From the NCBI GenBank assembly GCA_003164755.1, contig PLUB01000010.1, positions 1 to 64,000 on the forward strand: a DNA stretch of 64,000 nt. Reading direction: 5' to 3'. The first letter of the stretch is position 1. Every line of letters starts with the position of its first letter. The stretch comes from Methanosarcina sp. (GTDB lineage Archaea > Halobacteriota > Methanosarcinia > Methanosarcinales > Methanosarcinaceae). The notes beneath the pieces are model-generated. The model was not told the DNA's origin. It was given only the letters and a program-made list of their open reading frames with translations, and ran no database searches. This document shows, piece by piece, positions 6,567 to 18,293 of the stretch. The position numbers were made by a program, and so were the translations under genes.

Positions 6567-9026
6567 TTAGATTTTTATTTTGTTTCCATTTAAAACGTCA
6601 CTTTCTTTTATATAAATTGCTGGTCCAGTGATATTTCCTTCTGCACTCAGTTTATAAGCTGATATAGCATTGGTTCCACTGTCAGTTTTTTCTGTAGAAT
6701 AGGGTACAGTTATTTCAAATGAACCGTCCATATCTGCCTTTGCTCCATTTTCATACTTGAACTCTCTGCCTGCGTTTGATTTGAGATAAAGTGTTACATT
6801 GACAGGTTTGTTAGGGGTTGAAGTACCTGTAATCTTGGCCCCTCGAACATATTCAAATATTTTTACAATATTACTTTTGTTATGGGCTACATTCAGGACA
6901 ATGCTTTCGTGGACAAGCCGTAGATTTCCAAGATTTGCTCCATTACGGTCGTGAAGCTTAAATATCTCAGTATTCAAAAGTTTCTCTTTAGCAATCACAG
7001 AAGTACGGTTAACTTGCTTAAAATAATCCTTTGAATCCTTTCCTGCGAAATGAGCAATAGCTCCAAACTTACCATTTAACATCGGTGTATCAGTTATCAC
7101 ATATTTTACCTTGAGTTTGTCCATTACAGCCTTTGCTTCCTGTTCAGACTCAGACATAAAGAAATCTGCCGAATCCTCAACACCGGTCTGGAAATTATTC
7201 GATATTGCAGGCCTCTTGGAGATGTACACTATCCAGTTACCATAATCCCACCAGCTCAGTACTCCATATTCTGGAATTTGGAAAGGTTGAAGATAATAAG
7301 AAGTCTCAGGGCTGGAATTTTTGAGCCAAATGAGCGATTTTTGCCATTCTGGACCTGGAACAACCAAGTCTGAACTTTTTGCAAAAGCAACTCCTATCCA
7401 TATGCAGGGTATAAAAACGAGCCCTATCAACGCCAATGCTGAAAAAACTTTGAAGTAATCAGGTCTCTGCTTATTTTTTGACCCTGAAAAATCCCTTTTT
7501 TTGAGTCTTGGTATTGTGTTCACATTTACTTTTTTTTCGGTTTGAGAGTCAAGTGAGATTTTTTTCCAATTTTTTAGTCCAGATATTACCATTTTTACTT
7601 CAGTTTCAAAGTTTAGGGATTCAAACAGAATCCATAGTATATATGAAGTAAGGATTGCAATATTTACTGCGAGCTGATATGAAAAACGTCTTTGTGAAAA
7701 TGTGATATATGCAGAAAAGATTGTCCATAATAGGAAAAAAACCCTCTCTGGTTTTGATTTATCCCCTTTCCACTCAAGAACTAGCAGGAAAAAAGCTGCA
7801 AGAGCAACAAGCAAGCAAAGTCCGAAATTTCCTAATGCTTGCGTAACAGTGAAGTTTCCTGTTGAAGTTAAAAACAAAGGAATTGCTTCGGAAATAGTAC
7901 CTAAGTATTCACCTTTTCCCGAGAAAAAACCTATTCCTTCTATCACAAAAGCGTAAGATCCAGCTGAAAAAAAGCGGAGAAACCAAAAGCTTGTACACAA
8001 AACCAGTATTAAAGTGCCAGGATAATACTTCCAGTCCATGCCTTTTTTTGAGATATATACGGAAAGGCCCCAACAAAAAGTAGTGGCTGCTATCATGCTA
8101 AGTATATAGAGTACCTGAAACCAGGAAAGATACATAGCACTCATTTCTAGACCCGAGCGTACATATCCTAATGATAATGGAATAGTAAATAAAAGTGTTG
8201 CAAAAAGACTTGTTACTAAGCAGATGAAAATGTCATCAGATCGTTTTCCGGCTTTAAGGTCGAGAATAGTCTGTACAACTGCATACAATACTATCAAGCT
8301 TACAAAAAACAAGGCCCCCAACCATGTAAAAATAAACAGCGCTAAGAATATCCCCGATGCTCCTGCAAAAGCCAGTGATTTAATCAGTTTCTTTTCTGAA
8401 TAAATATTTTTAAGAGAGCTGAGGGAAAAAGAATCTTCCCTTATCCATTTTAAAGCAAGTATGATTAATGCATATGATGCAGTTGTGAGAAATGTTTCTG
8501 CTACATGATGGCTAACGTTTCCAAACTTGGATGCGTATATATGAGCTGGCATAAATGCAAAAACGAAGGCGGCAAGAAGTCCTGTTTTTCTGTCAAGAAT
8601 CGTAGCAGCTGCTATATAAAGTGGAATTATAGTCAATACCCCGAGAAGTACCGGTAATAATGCTCCTGCAAATTCGATAATATGCAAATCTGGCTGGCCT
8701 CCTCCCAAGATTTTTGCAAGCAGAGCACCTAACAGATCAAAAAAAGGCGGCCATCCTATTTCAAAACCGTAAGGATAATTGAGGTAAGAATCGAAATTAA
8801 GAGTATGTGGAAAATTGTATGCTGTATAAAGAATACGTCGCATATGATAAAATTGATCATATCCGCTGAAGGTTATACCTCCGTTTGCAGTGACTGAGGT
8901 ATAAGAGAGCATGCGTATGAAAAAAGCAACTAAAACAGCTGCTGTTAGAGTAATAATTCTAAGTTTTAAACCATTGTGATGTCCTTCTGCAACCGAATAT
9001 GCCATGCCTTTAGTCATTGCAACCAT
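6567..9026 (-). CDS. aglB: Oligosaccharyltransferase AglB (STT3 family)
   Basis: Transfers a lipid-linked glycan to Asn in N-glycosylation sequons of exported proteins, outside the cell membrane. The 819-residue protein has an N-terminal half of about a dozen membrane segments (roughly residues 25-490) and a soluble C-terminal domain. The STT3 hallmark WWDYG is present in GVLSWWDYGNWIVYISKR. The first external loop has YDQFYHMRR (the GXD-type acidic site near residue 55), and NVSHHVAE matches the second metal-binding loop. A basic, poorly conserved segment (near residues 485-510) connects the halves. It stands alone between convergent ackA and an IS110 relic. The start is uncertain, since Met residues at 1, 4 and 8 are all possible. 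Confidence 0.92.
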   Translation of the reverse strand: MVAMTKGMAYSVAEGHHNGLKLRIITLTAAVLVAFFIRMLSYTSVTANGGITFSGYDQFYHMRRILYTAYNFPHTLNFDSYLNYPYGFEIGWPPFFDLLGALLAKILGGGQPDLHIIEFAGALLPVLLGVLTIIPLYIAAATILDRKTGLLAAFVFAFMPAHIYASKFGNVSHHVAETFLTTASYALIILALKWIREDSFSLSSLKNIYSEKKLIKSLAFAGASGIFLALFIFTWLGALFFVSLIVLYAVVQTILDLKAGKRSDDIFICLVTSLFATLLFTIPLSLGYVRSGLEMSAMYLSWFQVLYILSMIAATTFCWGLSVYISKKGMDWKYYPGTLILVLCTSFWFLRFFSAGSYAFVIEGIGFFSGKGEYLGTISEAIPLFLTSTGNFTVTQALGNFGLCLLVALAAFFLLVLEWKGDKSKPERVFFLLWTIFSAYITFSQRRFSYQLAVNIAILTSYILWILFESLNFETEVKMVISGLKNWKKISLDSQTEKKVNVNTIPRLKKRDFSGSKNKQRPDYFKVFSALALIGLVFIPCIWIGVAFAKSSDLVVPGPEWQKSLIWLKNSSPETSYYLQPFQIPEYGVLSWWDYGNWIVYISKRPAISNNFQTGVEDSADFFMSESEQEAKAVMDKLKVKYVITDTPMLNGKFGAIAHFAGKDSKDYFKQVNRTSVIAKEKLLNTEIFKLHDRNGANLGNLRLVHESIVLNVAHNKSNIVKIFEYVRGAKITGTSTPNKPVNVTLYLKSNAGREFKYENGAKADMDGSFEITVPYSTEKTDSGTNAISAYKLSAEGNITGPAIYIKESDVLNGNKIKI

Positions 9027-13217: not shown

Positions 13218-13739
13218 AAAGTGCCTTATATTTACCTTTGGAAATCCTTTCTGCAGACAATTACTTTCTGAATCAGCTTTACCGGCAGAAACGTCAGGTT
13301 AAATAATTAAGGATTCAGATAAAACTCTGATTTTAACGAGTCATATATATACCACTTATATGCATATGAATAAACTCGGTGTACATAGAAATCCTCAATT
13401 TACTATTATTATGTATAACGTAGAAACTCGTCATCCTATTTCAATTATCCTTACAAATCTTTTTAAGCATGTTCTCAAAAGTTCCTTTTATTGTAATTAT
13501 ATTAACTCTATCGGAATTAATAGTATCAACCTTTAACACTCTTAATATAATTTCTATCAAGCAGAATAGATTCCTTATGTAGTGAACGCCCTTAAATGAT
13601 TCTCGTTCATTAAAATTAAAAACTTTTTGGAACTATTCAGATAGCTTTGGAGGTAACTCCATAATTTCTCATCGAAACGAGGGATAATTGAATGCAAAAT
13701 GAATTGTTTTTATTGCTGACGAAACATAAATAGATTCTC
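13218..13739. other. Gene-free region
   Basis: No supported gene. It separates the Nudix-tfs unit from an eroded IS66 element, whose left end may lie inside it but cannot be delimited by eye. Confidence 0.4.
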
Positions 13740-15125
13740 AATCTGTGTGCTTCAAACCCTAAAGTTATTGCTTGTATCAAGAGACTCGGATCCCAATAAA
13801 AAACTCACTGGAAGATTAATCTTATTAAAATTTCACTTAAATCAAAACAGTCGCAACATTATCAAACCTCCTTCTACTAATTTGTTGTCAAAGAGAAACC
13901 CAATTCCAAGAATCTTCACAAAAAAGGTTGCAAAAGACCAGGAGGTCAAAGTGGTACTCTACTAATAACTCATGACATGGTTAATGATTTTGATTGGCTA
14001 AGAAAATATTCTTCGAACTACTGTAAAAAATGCGAACACTCTCTTGAGGAGATTGAGGTTAAAAAGCTTAGTAGAAAAAACAACGTTTTGAGATTCTACC
14101 CATAAATCTTATTGTTACAGAACATCGAATTCAGAAGAAGATCTTTCCTGATCATGGAAGATTAAATTAAACTATTTTTCATAGATCAGTGAAATATTTA
14201 GATCAGCATGGCCTAATATTTTAGCTTCAGCAATCTACTGTAAAAACTACCAGCTTATCCCCTATAGAAAGTATTTCGGATTTTTTTACTGGTGTTATGG
14301 GATGAAAATCGGTTCTGCTATCATAATTAGAACGGAAAAAGAATGTTTCCAGAATTTGGAAAAATTTGAAAACTTGATTATGGATAAGCTAATAACTCCT
14401 CTTGTCATCCATTGTGATGAAACAAAGATGAAAATCGAGAAATTGGACATTGGCCATTTAACTTCCAACGACAAATACAATGGTATCTTTTTCATCCAAA
14501 AAGAGAATTTTAAATAATAGAAGTATGTGACTTCTTTTGAAGTTCAAAGGAATAGCAGTTCATGATAAACGGAAATCCTACAACAGTTATGAATGTGCTA
14601 ACTCTCTCGCAATGTTCACATTCTAAAATAACTTAATGAGATTGAAGAAAATTATACACAGCAATTAGCTGAAGATATGAATAAGCTTTTAACAGAAATA
14701 AACAAAATACACTGATGAATACAAAGAGTAAATTCAAGAGTTGAATTTAGAGCAAATTAAAGCATTGAAAGAAAGGTTCGATTCCGTAGGCATTAAAGGA
14801 AGGGGAGTAAATCAGCCTTATTCAAACCGTCAAAAACAAGGAAAACGACGTTCAATCCCACAATTAAAGACATAAAATATACTTGATAAGTTTGTACGAT
14901 ACAAAGCAAGATCATGAGAATCCTTACGGAACTGATAGTTCTGAAAATAATAGGCATAAAGATGCATCAAAATAATGAAACTACAGCAAAAAATGTCAGG
15001 AACTTTTAGAAGCATACAATGAACTGCAGCTTGCTGCAAAAGTAGAGCCTACATTTACTACATCCGAAAGAATAATTTACCGGTTATAGAAGTTAATTTC
15101 ACCAGTGCTCAAGGTAGCAAAGATA
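13740..15125 (+). pseudogene. IS66-family transposase, heavily eroded
   Basis: Recognisable pieces occur in the right order but in different frames. The first is LNQNSRNIIKPPSTN around 13830 (the family N-terminal RLNQNSRNSSKPPSSD-type block). Next come a zinc-finger-like YCKKCEHSLEEIEVK at about 14020 and PLVIHCDETKMKIEKLDIGHL at about 14400 (the DDE block VVHADETG). FKGIAVHDKRKSYNSYECA follows at about 14540, then QLAEDMNKLLTEINKI at 14670, and NRQKQGKRRSIPQL at 14830, followed by a degraded NNRHKD stretch. Many stops and frameshifts rule out activity. Downstream of 14970 the C-terminal end becomes unclear. Confidence 0.75.
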
Positions 15126-15631
15126 AAAGATACTCTGAATAGTTACAATTTCTTTCGCTCTATTTCCATAATTTATTTCATCCCGCCAGTTTTATATAAA
15201 TAACCATACTTTTGTAACGCTATTTTTGTATAATAGAAATTTGTTATCTTATCTACAATGTTCATTTGACCCTTTATATCTATGGAGGTAAAATTCCATT
15301 ATGTGAAAAAGTAAAATCCAAAATCTTTGAATTACTTTAATATTATGTACATGAATATATTAGGAATTTGGGATATATTCTAGGGCCTCAAAAATACACC
15401 GTTAATTCCACTAGCAATTGACTGCAATCAATCAAAACCCATCAAATAGTATGAAGGTCTCATATAGTGCAAACCATTAGAAGTATCTAATGGAAATCTA
15501 TTAATTATTTTAGAGAATTTCATATGTACTTTCCAGAAACTTCAATTGCCCGAGATTTTTCTCAGGAATCAAAAATAAGGAAAAAGAAGATATAATTTGT
15601 CTTTTTATCCTGGCCAAAAAGGTGCGTAAAA
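15126..15631. other. Intergenic region upstream of artA
   Basis: It contains repeat B (15401-15462) and the presumed artA promoter. No gene is supported. Confidence 0.45.
15401..15462 (+). repeat. Dispersed repeat B, copy 1
   Basis: A segment with TTAATTCCACTAGCAATTG, then ACTGCAATCAATCAAAACCCAT and a conserved GTCTC end. Related copies lie at 23941-24007 (same strand) and 20868-20912 (opposite strand). Confidence 0.5.
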
Positions 15632-16501
15632 ATGATAGAGAATATACTCTGGCTCGCAGTAGGGTTAATGGTCACTTCATCCGCCGTCCCCAGAACATTA
15701 AGGATTCGTAAACTTGTCGGAGGGATAGGATGGTGTACATTTTCCATTTATTGGAGTTATCAGCCTTTCCATTACCTCAAGGTCTTAGATTATGTAAATG
15801 TACTCCTGTCAATAGTTGTTACTTTATTTTGCATATTTGTGGCATTTATTATGTTTCACGAGTACAGAGAAGGCCCCCTTCGTCTACTAAATAATGGAGA
15901 GATCCTGCACTCGAAATTTTCAACTCTGGATATAGTTGATTTCCGAAATGTGACTTCGATGCTTACAAGTGCCTGTGCACTAGGAGCTCTAGTTTACTTT
16001 CCATTTGCTAATTTCACCTACCTAAATACCTGGATTATAGGAGGAGTTACCTCTCAGGTAGTCTGGATTCTCCAGTATTTTGATATTCCTGCTTACATGA
16101 AAGACTGGAATATGATAACCCTTAATGGACATACAGTAGAGATCATTCTTGCCTGTACAGCAATTGAGAGCATTGCTCTCTTTATGGGGCTTATAGGTGC
16201 AGTTAGAGCTCCCCTTAGTCGCCTGGCTACAGCTTTTGCCGTATCCGTACCTGTGATTTATGTACTTAATCTTATAAGGGATATTTTTGTGGTAGTGGCC
16301 TATGGGGAGCAATGGTTTGGTGCTAATAGCTTTATAATCGCGCATAATTACATCGCAAAGGTGGGTTCAGTAATTGCTCTTTTTGTAATTTCATACATAG
16401 TGCTCCGAATTCTACCTGAACTGCTGGAAATGATTGATGGCCTTTGGATCATACTTTCCGAAGAATTGAGATCCCTCGTGAAGCTACATGGGGAGGACTG
16501 A
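15632..16501 (+). CDS. artA: Archaeosortase A
   Basis: A membrane transpeptidase-like enzyme that cuts surface proteins near a C-terminal PGF-CTERM signal and, in haloarchaea, is needed for their lipid attachment. The 289-residue protein has about eight predicted membrane helices. The exosortase/archaeosortase triad is visible: Cys in ILACTAIESIA, Arg in LNLIRDIFVVVAY and His in FIIAHNYIAKVG. The start is the ATG at 15632 with an AAGGTG ribosome site. It is followed immediately by two lipid genes, the decarboxylase starting 4 nt after its stop. The same association of artA with phosphatidylserine-type lipid genes is known in Haloferax. No PGF-CTERM substrate was found in this window. Confidence 0.9.
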   Translation: MIENILWLAVGLMVTSSAVPRTLRIRKLVGGIGWCTFSIYWSYQPFHYLKVLDYVNVLLSIVVTLFCIFVAFIMFHEYREGPLRLLNNGEILHSKFSTLDIVDFRNVTSMLTSACALGALVYFPFANFTYLNTWIIGGVTSQVVWILQYFDIPAYMKDWNMITLNGHTVEIILACTAIESIALFMGLIGAVRAPLSRLATAFAVSVPVIYVLNLIRDIFVVVAYGEQWFGANSFIIAHNYIAKVGSVIALFVISYIVLRILPELLEMIDGLWIILSEELRSLVKLHGED

Positions 16502-16505
16502 AGTC

Positions 16506-17144
16506 ATGATTGCGAAGGGCTCAGAACCCTGGATTTTTACGGCTGTATCTGTAACTTCACTGTTTGCAATCCTCTCCAGGGTGATGAACAGTTCTTCAAT
16601 CAATCATGCTGTTTACGTAGGAATAGCATTAACTTTCTTTGTGGTTCTTTTTTTCAGAGATCCAGAAAGAAAAGTGGAAGTTTCGGACACTTATATGATT
16701 TCACCAGCAGATGGTACAGTTATAGACATCAGAGACCGAAAAATCTGTATTTTCATGTTTTTCCAGAATGTACATGTAAATAGAGCTCCAATTTCCGGAA
16801 AAATCAAGGAAATAACCTATAAAAAAGGTGGATATCTTCCTGCTTACCGCAAAGACTCTGACAGAAACGAAAGAAATGAGTTCATTATCCATAGCAAATA
16901 TGGAGATGTCAGCGTTATACAGATAGCCGGCGCAATTGCCCGCAGGATTGTCTCGTATTCAAGGGTGAATGATGTCATCGAGCAGGGACAACGCATAGGA
17001 ATGATTCGTTTTGGATCAAGGGTCGACGTAACAATTCCGGAAGATTTCGACATCATTGTAGGAAAAGGTGAGAGAGTACTTGCAGGCAAGACAGTTATAG
17101 CAAAAATAAAATATGGTAGGGACTTTGAATATGAACGTATTTAA
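16506..17144 (+). CDS. asd: Archaetidylserine decarboxylase (phosphatidylserine decarboxylase family)
   Basis: Predicted to decarboxylate archaetidylserine to archaetidylethanolamine at the membrane. The 212-residue protein belongs to the short archaeal PSD class. It has two N-terminal membrane segments (about residues 8-50), the ISPADGTVIDI block, the NVHVNRAPISGKI segment and the GS self-cleavage site in RFGSRVDVTIP, where Ser becomes the pyruvoyl group. The start chosen is the ATG at 16506 because GGAGG lies 9 nt upstream. The ATG at 16488 would overlap artA by 14 nt and lacks such a site. The end overlaps the next gene. It could also act on other polar headgroups. Confidence 0.87.
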   Translation: MIAKGSEPWIFTAVSVTSLFAILSRVMNSSSINHAVYVGIALTFFVVLFFRDPERKVEVSDTYMISPADGTVIDIRDRKICIFMFFQNVHVNRAPISGKIKEITYKKGGYLPAYRKDSDRNERNEFIIHSKYGDVSVIQIAGAIARRIVSYSRVNDVIEQGQRIGMIRFGSRVDVTIPEDFDIIVGKGERVLAGKTVIAKIKYGRDFEYERI

Positions 17145-17868
17145 AATGTTAAGACTTCCGGATTTTGTCTCTCTTTTGAACCTTATCTGCGGAATTAGCT
17201 CTATTTCAGTTAGCCATAATGGCTCGTTGGATCTTGCTTTGATCTTGCTCCTGCTTGCGGTAGTTGCAGATGGAGCTGATGGCTACATTGCTAGAAGGTT
17301 CGAAGGAGGAGAACTTGGGAAAAATCTTGATTCTTTTGCTGATGCAGTTTCATTCGGGGTTGCCCCTGCTTTTCTGATATACATAGGATTCGGAGGAGAA
17401 GATCCTATTGTTGCGGTACTTTCGGCTTTTTACACTGTGTGTGGTGTGCTAAGGCTCGCACGTTTCAATTCATCAGTATCTCCCCAGAAAAACGGATTTG
17501 AAGGGCTTCCTATTCCCGCAGGTTGTGTTATGCTGGTGACCTATCTTTTGCTGGACAAATATTTTGTAAGGATAGATTTCCTTCTTGCTCTTACCCTTGC
17601 TCTTTCTCTTCTTATGGTAAGTAGCGTGAGCTATCCGAAGATCAGAAACATAAAGATCCTAGTTTTAATAGCTTCCATTTTCGGGCTCATCATGCTTCTC
17701 TATTTTATTAATATGGTGGAGTATATGCGAATTTTTTCCATTTTGCCCTTTATCCTGATGCTAATTTATCTGTTATCTCCCTTTTTCAGGATTCCTTTGC
17801 TTAATAATTTTAATAGCAAAGAATATCGAGATAAAAAACTGGAAGCTGGGGAAAGAGAGGAGAAGTAA
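17131..17868 (+). CDS. pssA: CDP-archaeol serine transferase (CDP-alcohol phosphatidyltransferase family)
   Basis: Predicted to attach serine to CDP-archaeol, making archaetidylserine for the decarboxylase just upstream. The 245-residue membrane protein has the full catalytic signature D-xx-DG-xx-AR-x8-G-x3-D-x3-D at residues 47-71 (VADGADGYIARR through GKNLDSFADAVSFG) and about seven membrane helices. The start at the ATG at 17131 overlaps the asd stop by 14 nt. An upstream ATG at 17113 would add six residues. The close packing artA-asd-pssA argues for one transcript and for linked lipid and surface-protein chemistry. Confidence 0.88.
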   Translation: MNVFKMLRLPDFVSLLNLICGISSISVSHNGSLDLALILLLLAVVADGADGYIARRFEGGELGKNLDSFADAVSFGVAPAFLIYIGFGGEDPIVAVLSAFYTVCGVLRLARFNSSVSPQKNGFEGLPIPAGCVMLVTYLLLDKYFVRIDFLLALTLALSLLMVSSVSYPKIRNIKILVLIASIFGLIMLLYFINMVEYMRIFSILPFILMLIYLLSPFFRIPLLNNFNSKEYRDKKLEAGEREEK

Positions 17869-17924: not shown

Positions 17925-18293
17925 TTGAGTCGAGAAAAGATAACTGATAGGGACAACGCACTCTTTGAAGCAGGAATTAAGCTTGGAGCACTCTACCATC
18001 AATTTATAGGATCGCCTATAAATTTAAGCACCGTTTCTAGTTTTGAGCAGGCTATTCAGAAAAGCATTTCAGTCCAACCTTATATAAACGAGATTTCTGT
18101 AAATATCGACAGAGAAATACTGAAAAGCAAACTGGAAAATAAATTCGGCTATTCTGAACTTCAGGGTCCAATGCTTAGAGTAAAAATCACTGTAAAATAT
18201 GGTTCTGTAAAGGCGAAAGTTGGGATGGAATTTGACACAGAACTCAATTATCCGCTGATGAAAATTGAAGAAATCAAGGAATTAAGTGTTTGA
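17925..18293 (+). CDS. mptD: Dihydroneopterin aldolase, archaeal MptD type
   Basis: Cleaves 7,8-dihydroneopterin to 6-hydroxymethyl-dihydropterin in tetrahydromethanopterin/tetrahydrosarcinapterin synthesis. The 122 residues match the archaeal DUF372/MptD family: the EAGIKLGALYHQFIGSPINLSTVSSFEQAI beginning, PYINEISVNI in the middle, and LRVKITVKYG near the end. The start is TTG at 17925 with GGGAGAG about 10 nt upstream. The reading frame begins close after pssA on the same strand (about 57 nt), so it may share that transcript although the pathway differs. Confidence 0.85.
   Translation: MSREKITDRDNALFEAGIKLGALYHQFIGSPINLSTVSSFEQAIQKSISVQPYINEISVNIDREILKSKLENKFGYSELQGPMLRVKITVKYGSVKAKVGMEFDTELNYPLMKIEEIKELSV

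Follow-up and report, generated by a model that had tools for sequence, protein, structure and literature searches.

RESULTS

artA is closely followed by two archaetidyl lipid genes in a Methanosarcina genome

The window, by which we mean the whole 64,000-nucleotide stretch of DNA that was analysed, belongs to a 3.47-Mb draft genome (92% complete). Its nearest named relatives are Methanosarcina, in agreement with the methanogen context proposed in the initial annotation. The following features were located, all on the forward strand:

15480..15631, + strand: artA-proximal upstream segment (tctattaattattttaga ... aaaaggtgcgta), presumed promoter and leader (alignment with 11 relatives)
15632..16501, + strand: artA, archaeosortase A, a membrane transpeptidase-like protease (289 aa; TIGR04125; Cys175, Arg216, His238)
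16490..16496, + strand: GGGGAGG, Shine-Dalgarno-like, before asd and within the 3' end of artA (from the sequence)
16506..17144, + strand: asd (pssD), archaetidylserine decarboxylase (PF02666, NF003685; 16506 is the probable start, the longest ORF running from 16488)
17131..17868, + strand: pssA, archaetidylserine synthase, a CDP-alcohol phosphatidyltransferase (TIGR04217; 17131 is the probable start, the longest ORF running from 17113)
17925..18293, + strand: archaeal dihydroneopterin aldolase (PF04038, 146 bits), outside the lipid-anchoring unit

Profile searches bore out the identities that had been given to the first three genes. ArtA matched TIGR04125 with 261 bits (cut-off 75) over model positions 1-270 of 271 and is thus full-length; Cys175 (in ACTAIES) and Arg216 (in NLIRD) fall in invariant alignment columns and correspond to the conserved ACT and NxxR positions of archaeosortases. 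The third basic residue of the catalytic region is His in Methanosarcina ArtA, whereas it is Arg in the haloarchaea-like sequence aligned. Asd scored above the cut-offs for PF02666 (138 bits, cut-off 22) and for NF003685, the NCBIfam phosphatidylserine decarboxylase model (274 bits, cut-off 183), and below those for TIGR00164, the archaetidylserine decarboxylase equivalog (174 vs 230), and NF038088, the protein-sorting-system decarboxylase (165 vs 240). Its Gly-Ser autocleavage site is FGSR (Ser171), a motif that is invariant among the relatives aligned. PssA was recognised by TIGR04217 (archaetidylserine synthase; 293 bits, cut-off 200) and by TIGR00473 (pssA; 126 bits, cut-off 107), and its CDP-alcohol transferase motif is DGADGYIARRFEGGELGKNLDSFAD. 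One copy each of asd and pssA was found above threshold in the genome, both inside the artA operon.

When the proteins were aligned with those of relatives, conservation of Asd began at MIAKGSEPW (ATG 16506) and that of PssA at MNVFKMLRLPD (ATG 17131), and the Shine-Dalgarno-like GGGGAGG at 16490-16496 precedes ATG 16506. Judged from these features, the real starts of asd and pssA probably lie downstream of the longest-ORF starts. With these starts, artA and asd are likely separated by a 4-nt gap, and the end of asd runs 14 nt into pssA, consistent with the earlier description of three genes that overlap or nearly touch.

The upstream region of the operon appears unbroken

The gene preceding artA encodes a nudix protein, and the distance between the two is 2414 bp in the window versus 579-885 bp in other Methanosarcinaceae loci; in Methanococcoides it is 72 bp. 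The extra DNA (13650-15110) is a decayed IS66-type element, one fragment of which matches PF03050, and dozens of related pieces are scattered in the genome, the longer ones mostly at ~70-77% identity. A further gene of the system within this 2.4-kb gap was considered and rejected, the gap being occupied by the decayed element. Because the ~150 bp adjoining artA are kept in an alignment of 11 relatives, the operon's own upstream region was apparently not interrupted by the insertion, and the segment at 15480..15631 presumably holds its promoter and leader. The co-directional dihydroneopterin aldolase gene downstream is usual in Methanosarcina artA loci. On the opposite strand, 6.6 kb upstream of artA, positions 6567-9026 encode an AglB oligosaccharyl transferase that belongs to the archaeosortase-A-associated subfamily (TIGR04154, 708 bits).

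The gene order is conserved among relatives and dispersed in haloarchaea-like genomes

All Methanosarcina loci that extend far enough to reveal it keep the order artA-asd-pssA, and so do four loci of Methanococcoides and six belonging to other families in the taxonomic order, indicating that the arrangement is not due to chance. We extended the comparison across the phylum to 147 genomes with a completeness of 90% or more, of which 145 carry artA, 108 asd and 107 pssA. The two lipid genes are concordant in their presence or absence in 142 of the 147 genomes, leaving five disagreements. No more than 5 kb separates artA from each of the lipid genes in 67 genomes, spread over many families; all three genes were this close in every sampled genome of the family of Methanosarcina (24/24) and of the next family of the class (7/7).

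The initial annotation had placed artA next to the pss lipid genes in haloarchaea as well. The reverse proved to be the case: artA is within 5 kb of asd or pssA in none of 24 genomes of the haloarchaea-like families f13, f22, f23 and f29, which we take to be haloarchaea on the basis of base composition, dispersed genes and one named Halobacteriales locus (L054) without those neighbours. This agrees with published work on Haloferax volcanii, where the genes are unlinked (PMC7157517). The dependence of ArtA on the lipid genes, also part of the initial annotation, does hold in haloarchaea, since cleavage by ArtA is blocked in H. volcanii strains deleted for pssA or for pssD (PMC7157517). Several haloarchaea-like genomes (G133:C27, G156:C1, G146:C1, G174:C1, G160:C2) have a PGF-CTERM gene within ~1.3 kb of artA, suggesting that the neighbour of artA there is likely a substrate rather than a lipid gene.

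Two further observations concern individual loci. Many Methanosarcina PssA proteins (e.g. L033, L034, L036, L039) contain two extra loops of about 14 and 7 residues, which are absent from the window and from L040, L041 and L042; gene replacement as the cause of the low identity (65%) of the window's pssA to many relatives was rejected, as the alignment shows that most of the difference comes from these two loops, which are insertions on the relatives' side. In one Methanosarcina metagenome assembly (L052, and L026) artA, nudix and asd look frameshifted, and these are probably assembly indels, not real pseudogenes.

Candidate ArtA substrates are encoded elsewhere in the genome

Whole-genome searches for PGF-CTERM proteins gave one match to TIGR04126 at its strict threshold and three with a two-sequence tail model, and on these grounds a genome lacking ArtA substrates was rejected. 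At least three such proteins are therefore encoded (L098, L099, L108). One protein (670 aa) has a pair of PF07752 S-layer domains, carries its PGF-CTERM (PF18204) at the C-terminus and ends in the tail TPGFGVVLGITGLLAVVYFVRRNR; another (700 aa) contains DUF7507 and has the tail IPGFEIICGITGLLAVFLCRKK; the remaining one has the tail MPGFEIISGITILLAVFLYKRK. None is encoded on the contig of the window (C80), the matches lying on three other contigs, just as the initial annotation had found no such substrate within the window. Refined models give a mean of about 20 PGF-CTERM proteins for Methanosarcinales (PMC9723798), and the three found here are thus a minimum.

About a quarter of artA-positive genomes lack asd and pssA

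Both asd and pssA are absent from 36 of the 145 artA-positive genomes (e.g. most of L058-L092), and at least one PGF-CTERM candidate was detected in each of the 147 genomes surveyed. The genomes lacking the pair belong to families f8, f16, f19, f24, f25 and f26, which have one common artA neighbourhood and which we infer to be Methanomicrobiales; to f14, perhaps Methanocellales; to f20; and, as single genomes, to f12 and f18. The Methanomicrobiales include Methanospirillum hungatei, which has an S-layer protein with a PGF-CTERM (PMC11641113) and appears to belong to this group. Besides the standard artA, two further, diverged copies of the gene stand in tandem next to conserved neighbours at two loci of f26 (L089, L091), and the second of these copies has SCTP in place of ACT or GCT.

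Within the six Methanomicrobiales-like families, artA adjoins an opposite-strand gene for a CDP-alcohol phosphatidyltransferase in 26 of 29 genomes, and in most loci examined the two genes overlap tail to tail by 29 bp; one example is L084:7373-8005, with 16 similar loci in the same cluster (c6). The best NCBIfam match of this transferase is archaetidylinositol phosphate synthase, below its cut-off (98 vs 180). Its high-scoring form (>200 bits) occurs only in families without asd and pssA, among which one exceptional genome has a PF02666 match. Genomes sampled without asd and pssA mostly contain two or three CDP-alcohol transferases, and Methanosarcina-like genomes three or more. The simplest reading of these sequences is that the artA-adjacent enzyme would be an inositol-phosphate lipid synthase in an inherited neighbourhood; a role in anchoring is possible and unproven. 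That it replaces PssA is not favoured, as the census of CDP-alcohol transferases suggests that it serves as the archaetidylinositol-phosphate synthase of these genomes, and its gene lies on the opposite strand.

DISCUSSION

The most probable reading, to which we assign a probability of about 0.72, is that this locus represents the ArtA lipid-anchoring operon already known from Methanosarcina, with archaetidylethanolamine, or a lipid made from it, as the anchor. Both the artA-asd-pssA arrangement and the archaetidylethanolamine hypothesis are already published. Abdul-Halim et al. (2020) described the same artA-pssD-pssA synteny in Methanosarcina (PMC7157517), and they cite Haft et al. (2012) for the adjacency of artA and pssA in methanogens; the present locus has the same three genes in the same order and genus, and differs only in species and sequence. 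Three protein families with their catalytic motifs, a tight and conserved gene order, and PGF-CTERM substrates encoded on other contigs form the basis for reading the locus as this operon. That the three genes are co-transcribed, which lipid is attached, and that the reaction in this methanogen is the same are matters of inference.

According to this model, PssA would combine CDP-archaeol with serine to give archaetidylserine. Asd, after autocleavage at its Gly-Ser motif, would decarboxylate this product to archaetidylethanolamine. ArtA would cut PGF-CTERM proteins, chiefly the PF07752 S-layer protein, at the C-terminal signal through a Cys thioester, from which the amine of archaetidylethanolamine (or of a lipid derived from it) would release the protein, now anchored to the lipid. 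Bacterial sortase A and rhombosortase are analogues of such a reaction, in which cleavage of a C-terminal signal is followed by transfer to a membrane-linked amine; they are not homologous to ArtA, and the ArtA acceptor would be an ether lipid. The Haloferax volcanii system (ArtA, HvPssA, HvPssD) comprises the same three protein families and has PGF-CTERM substrates including the S-layer protein, but its genes are unlinked in haloarchaea and adjacent in Methanosarcina.

The choice of archaetidylethanolamine as the ArtA lipid is speculative: it is supported by the H. volcanii knock-outs and is chemically unproven. It was proposed as the amine nucleophile in PMC7157517, where the model is itself marked as speculative. 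Against the reading of the locus as a whole stand the scores of Asd below the cut-offs of TIGR00164 and NF038088, the ArtA genomes without the lipid genes, and mass spectrometry, cited in PMC7157517, in which the lipid on the S-layer glycoprotein was identified as archaetidic acid, from which the head group may have been lost.

An unlikely alternative is that asd and pssA supply the bulk of membrane archaetidylserine and archaetidylethanolamine, that artA adjoins them through a shared envelope function or an inherited order, and that the lipid used by ArtA is a different one. As the sole copies found in the genome, asd and pssA must also serve any bulk aminolipid synthesis, and the genomes with ArtA and without both lipid genes fit this account as well. 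It is harder to reconcile with the block of ArtA cleavage upon deletion of pssA or pssD in H. volcanii, where no linkage of the genes is involved (PMC7157517), or with the linkage of artA and the lipid genes across so many families. The tight linkage of pssA to artA would also suit a scheme in which archaetidylserine itself, rather than archaetidylethanolamine, is the nucleophile or anchor and Asd has a separate role. Serine, too, has a free amine. We consider this scheme highly improbable, given that asd is placed between the other two genes and seldom occurs without pssA, and that PssD is required for ArtA processing in Haloferax (PMC7157517).

While archaetidylethanolamine or a derived lipid remains the preferred anchor for Methanosarcina, archaetidylethanolamine made by PssA and PssD cannot be the ArtA lipid in the 36 genomes that lack both enzymes. 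As a general rule for all ArtA systems, the model therefore fails: supposing that PssA and Asd are the obligatory source of the lipid, it is not universal, since all the sampled genomes have PGF-CTERM candidates. We hold it fairly probable that the anchor lipid in these Methanomicrobiales-like, Methanocellales-like and related genomes does not derive from PssA and Asd. The fuller proposal, that it is a different lipid made in the Methanomicrobiales-like genomes by the artA-adjacent transferase, is decidedly unlikely.

In summary, the operon confirms the published arrangement, and the new angle offered here is one of distribution only, namely the size of the ArtA group without the lipid pair, which we did not find in the literature examined. 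These genomes bear on the generality of the archaetidylethanolamine model, not on the Methanosarcina locus, and they add a usable test of that model.
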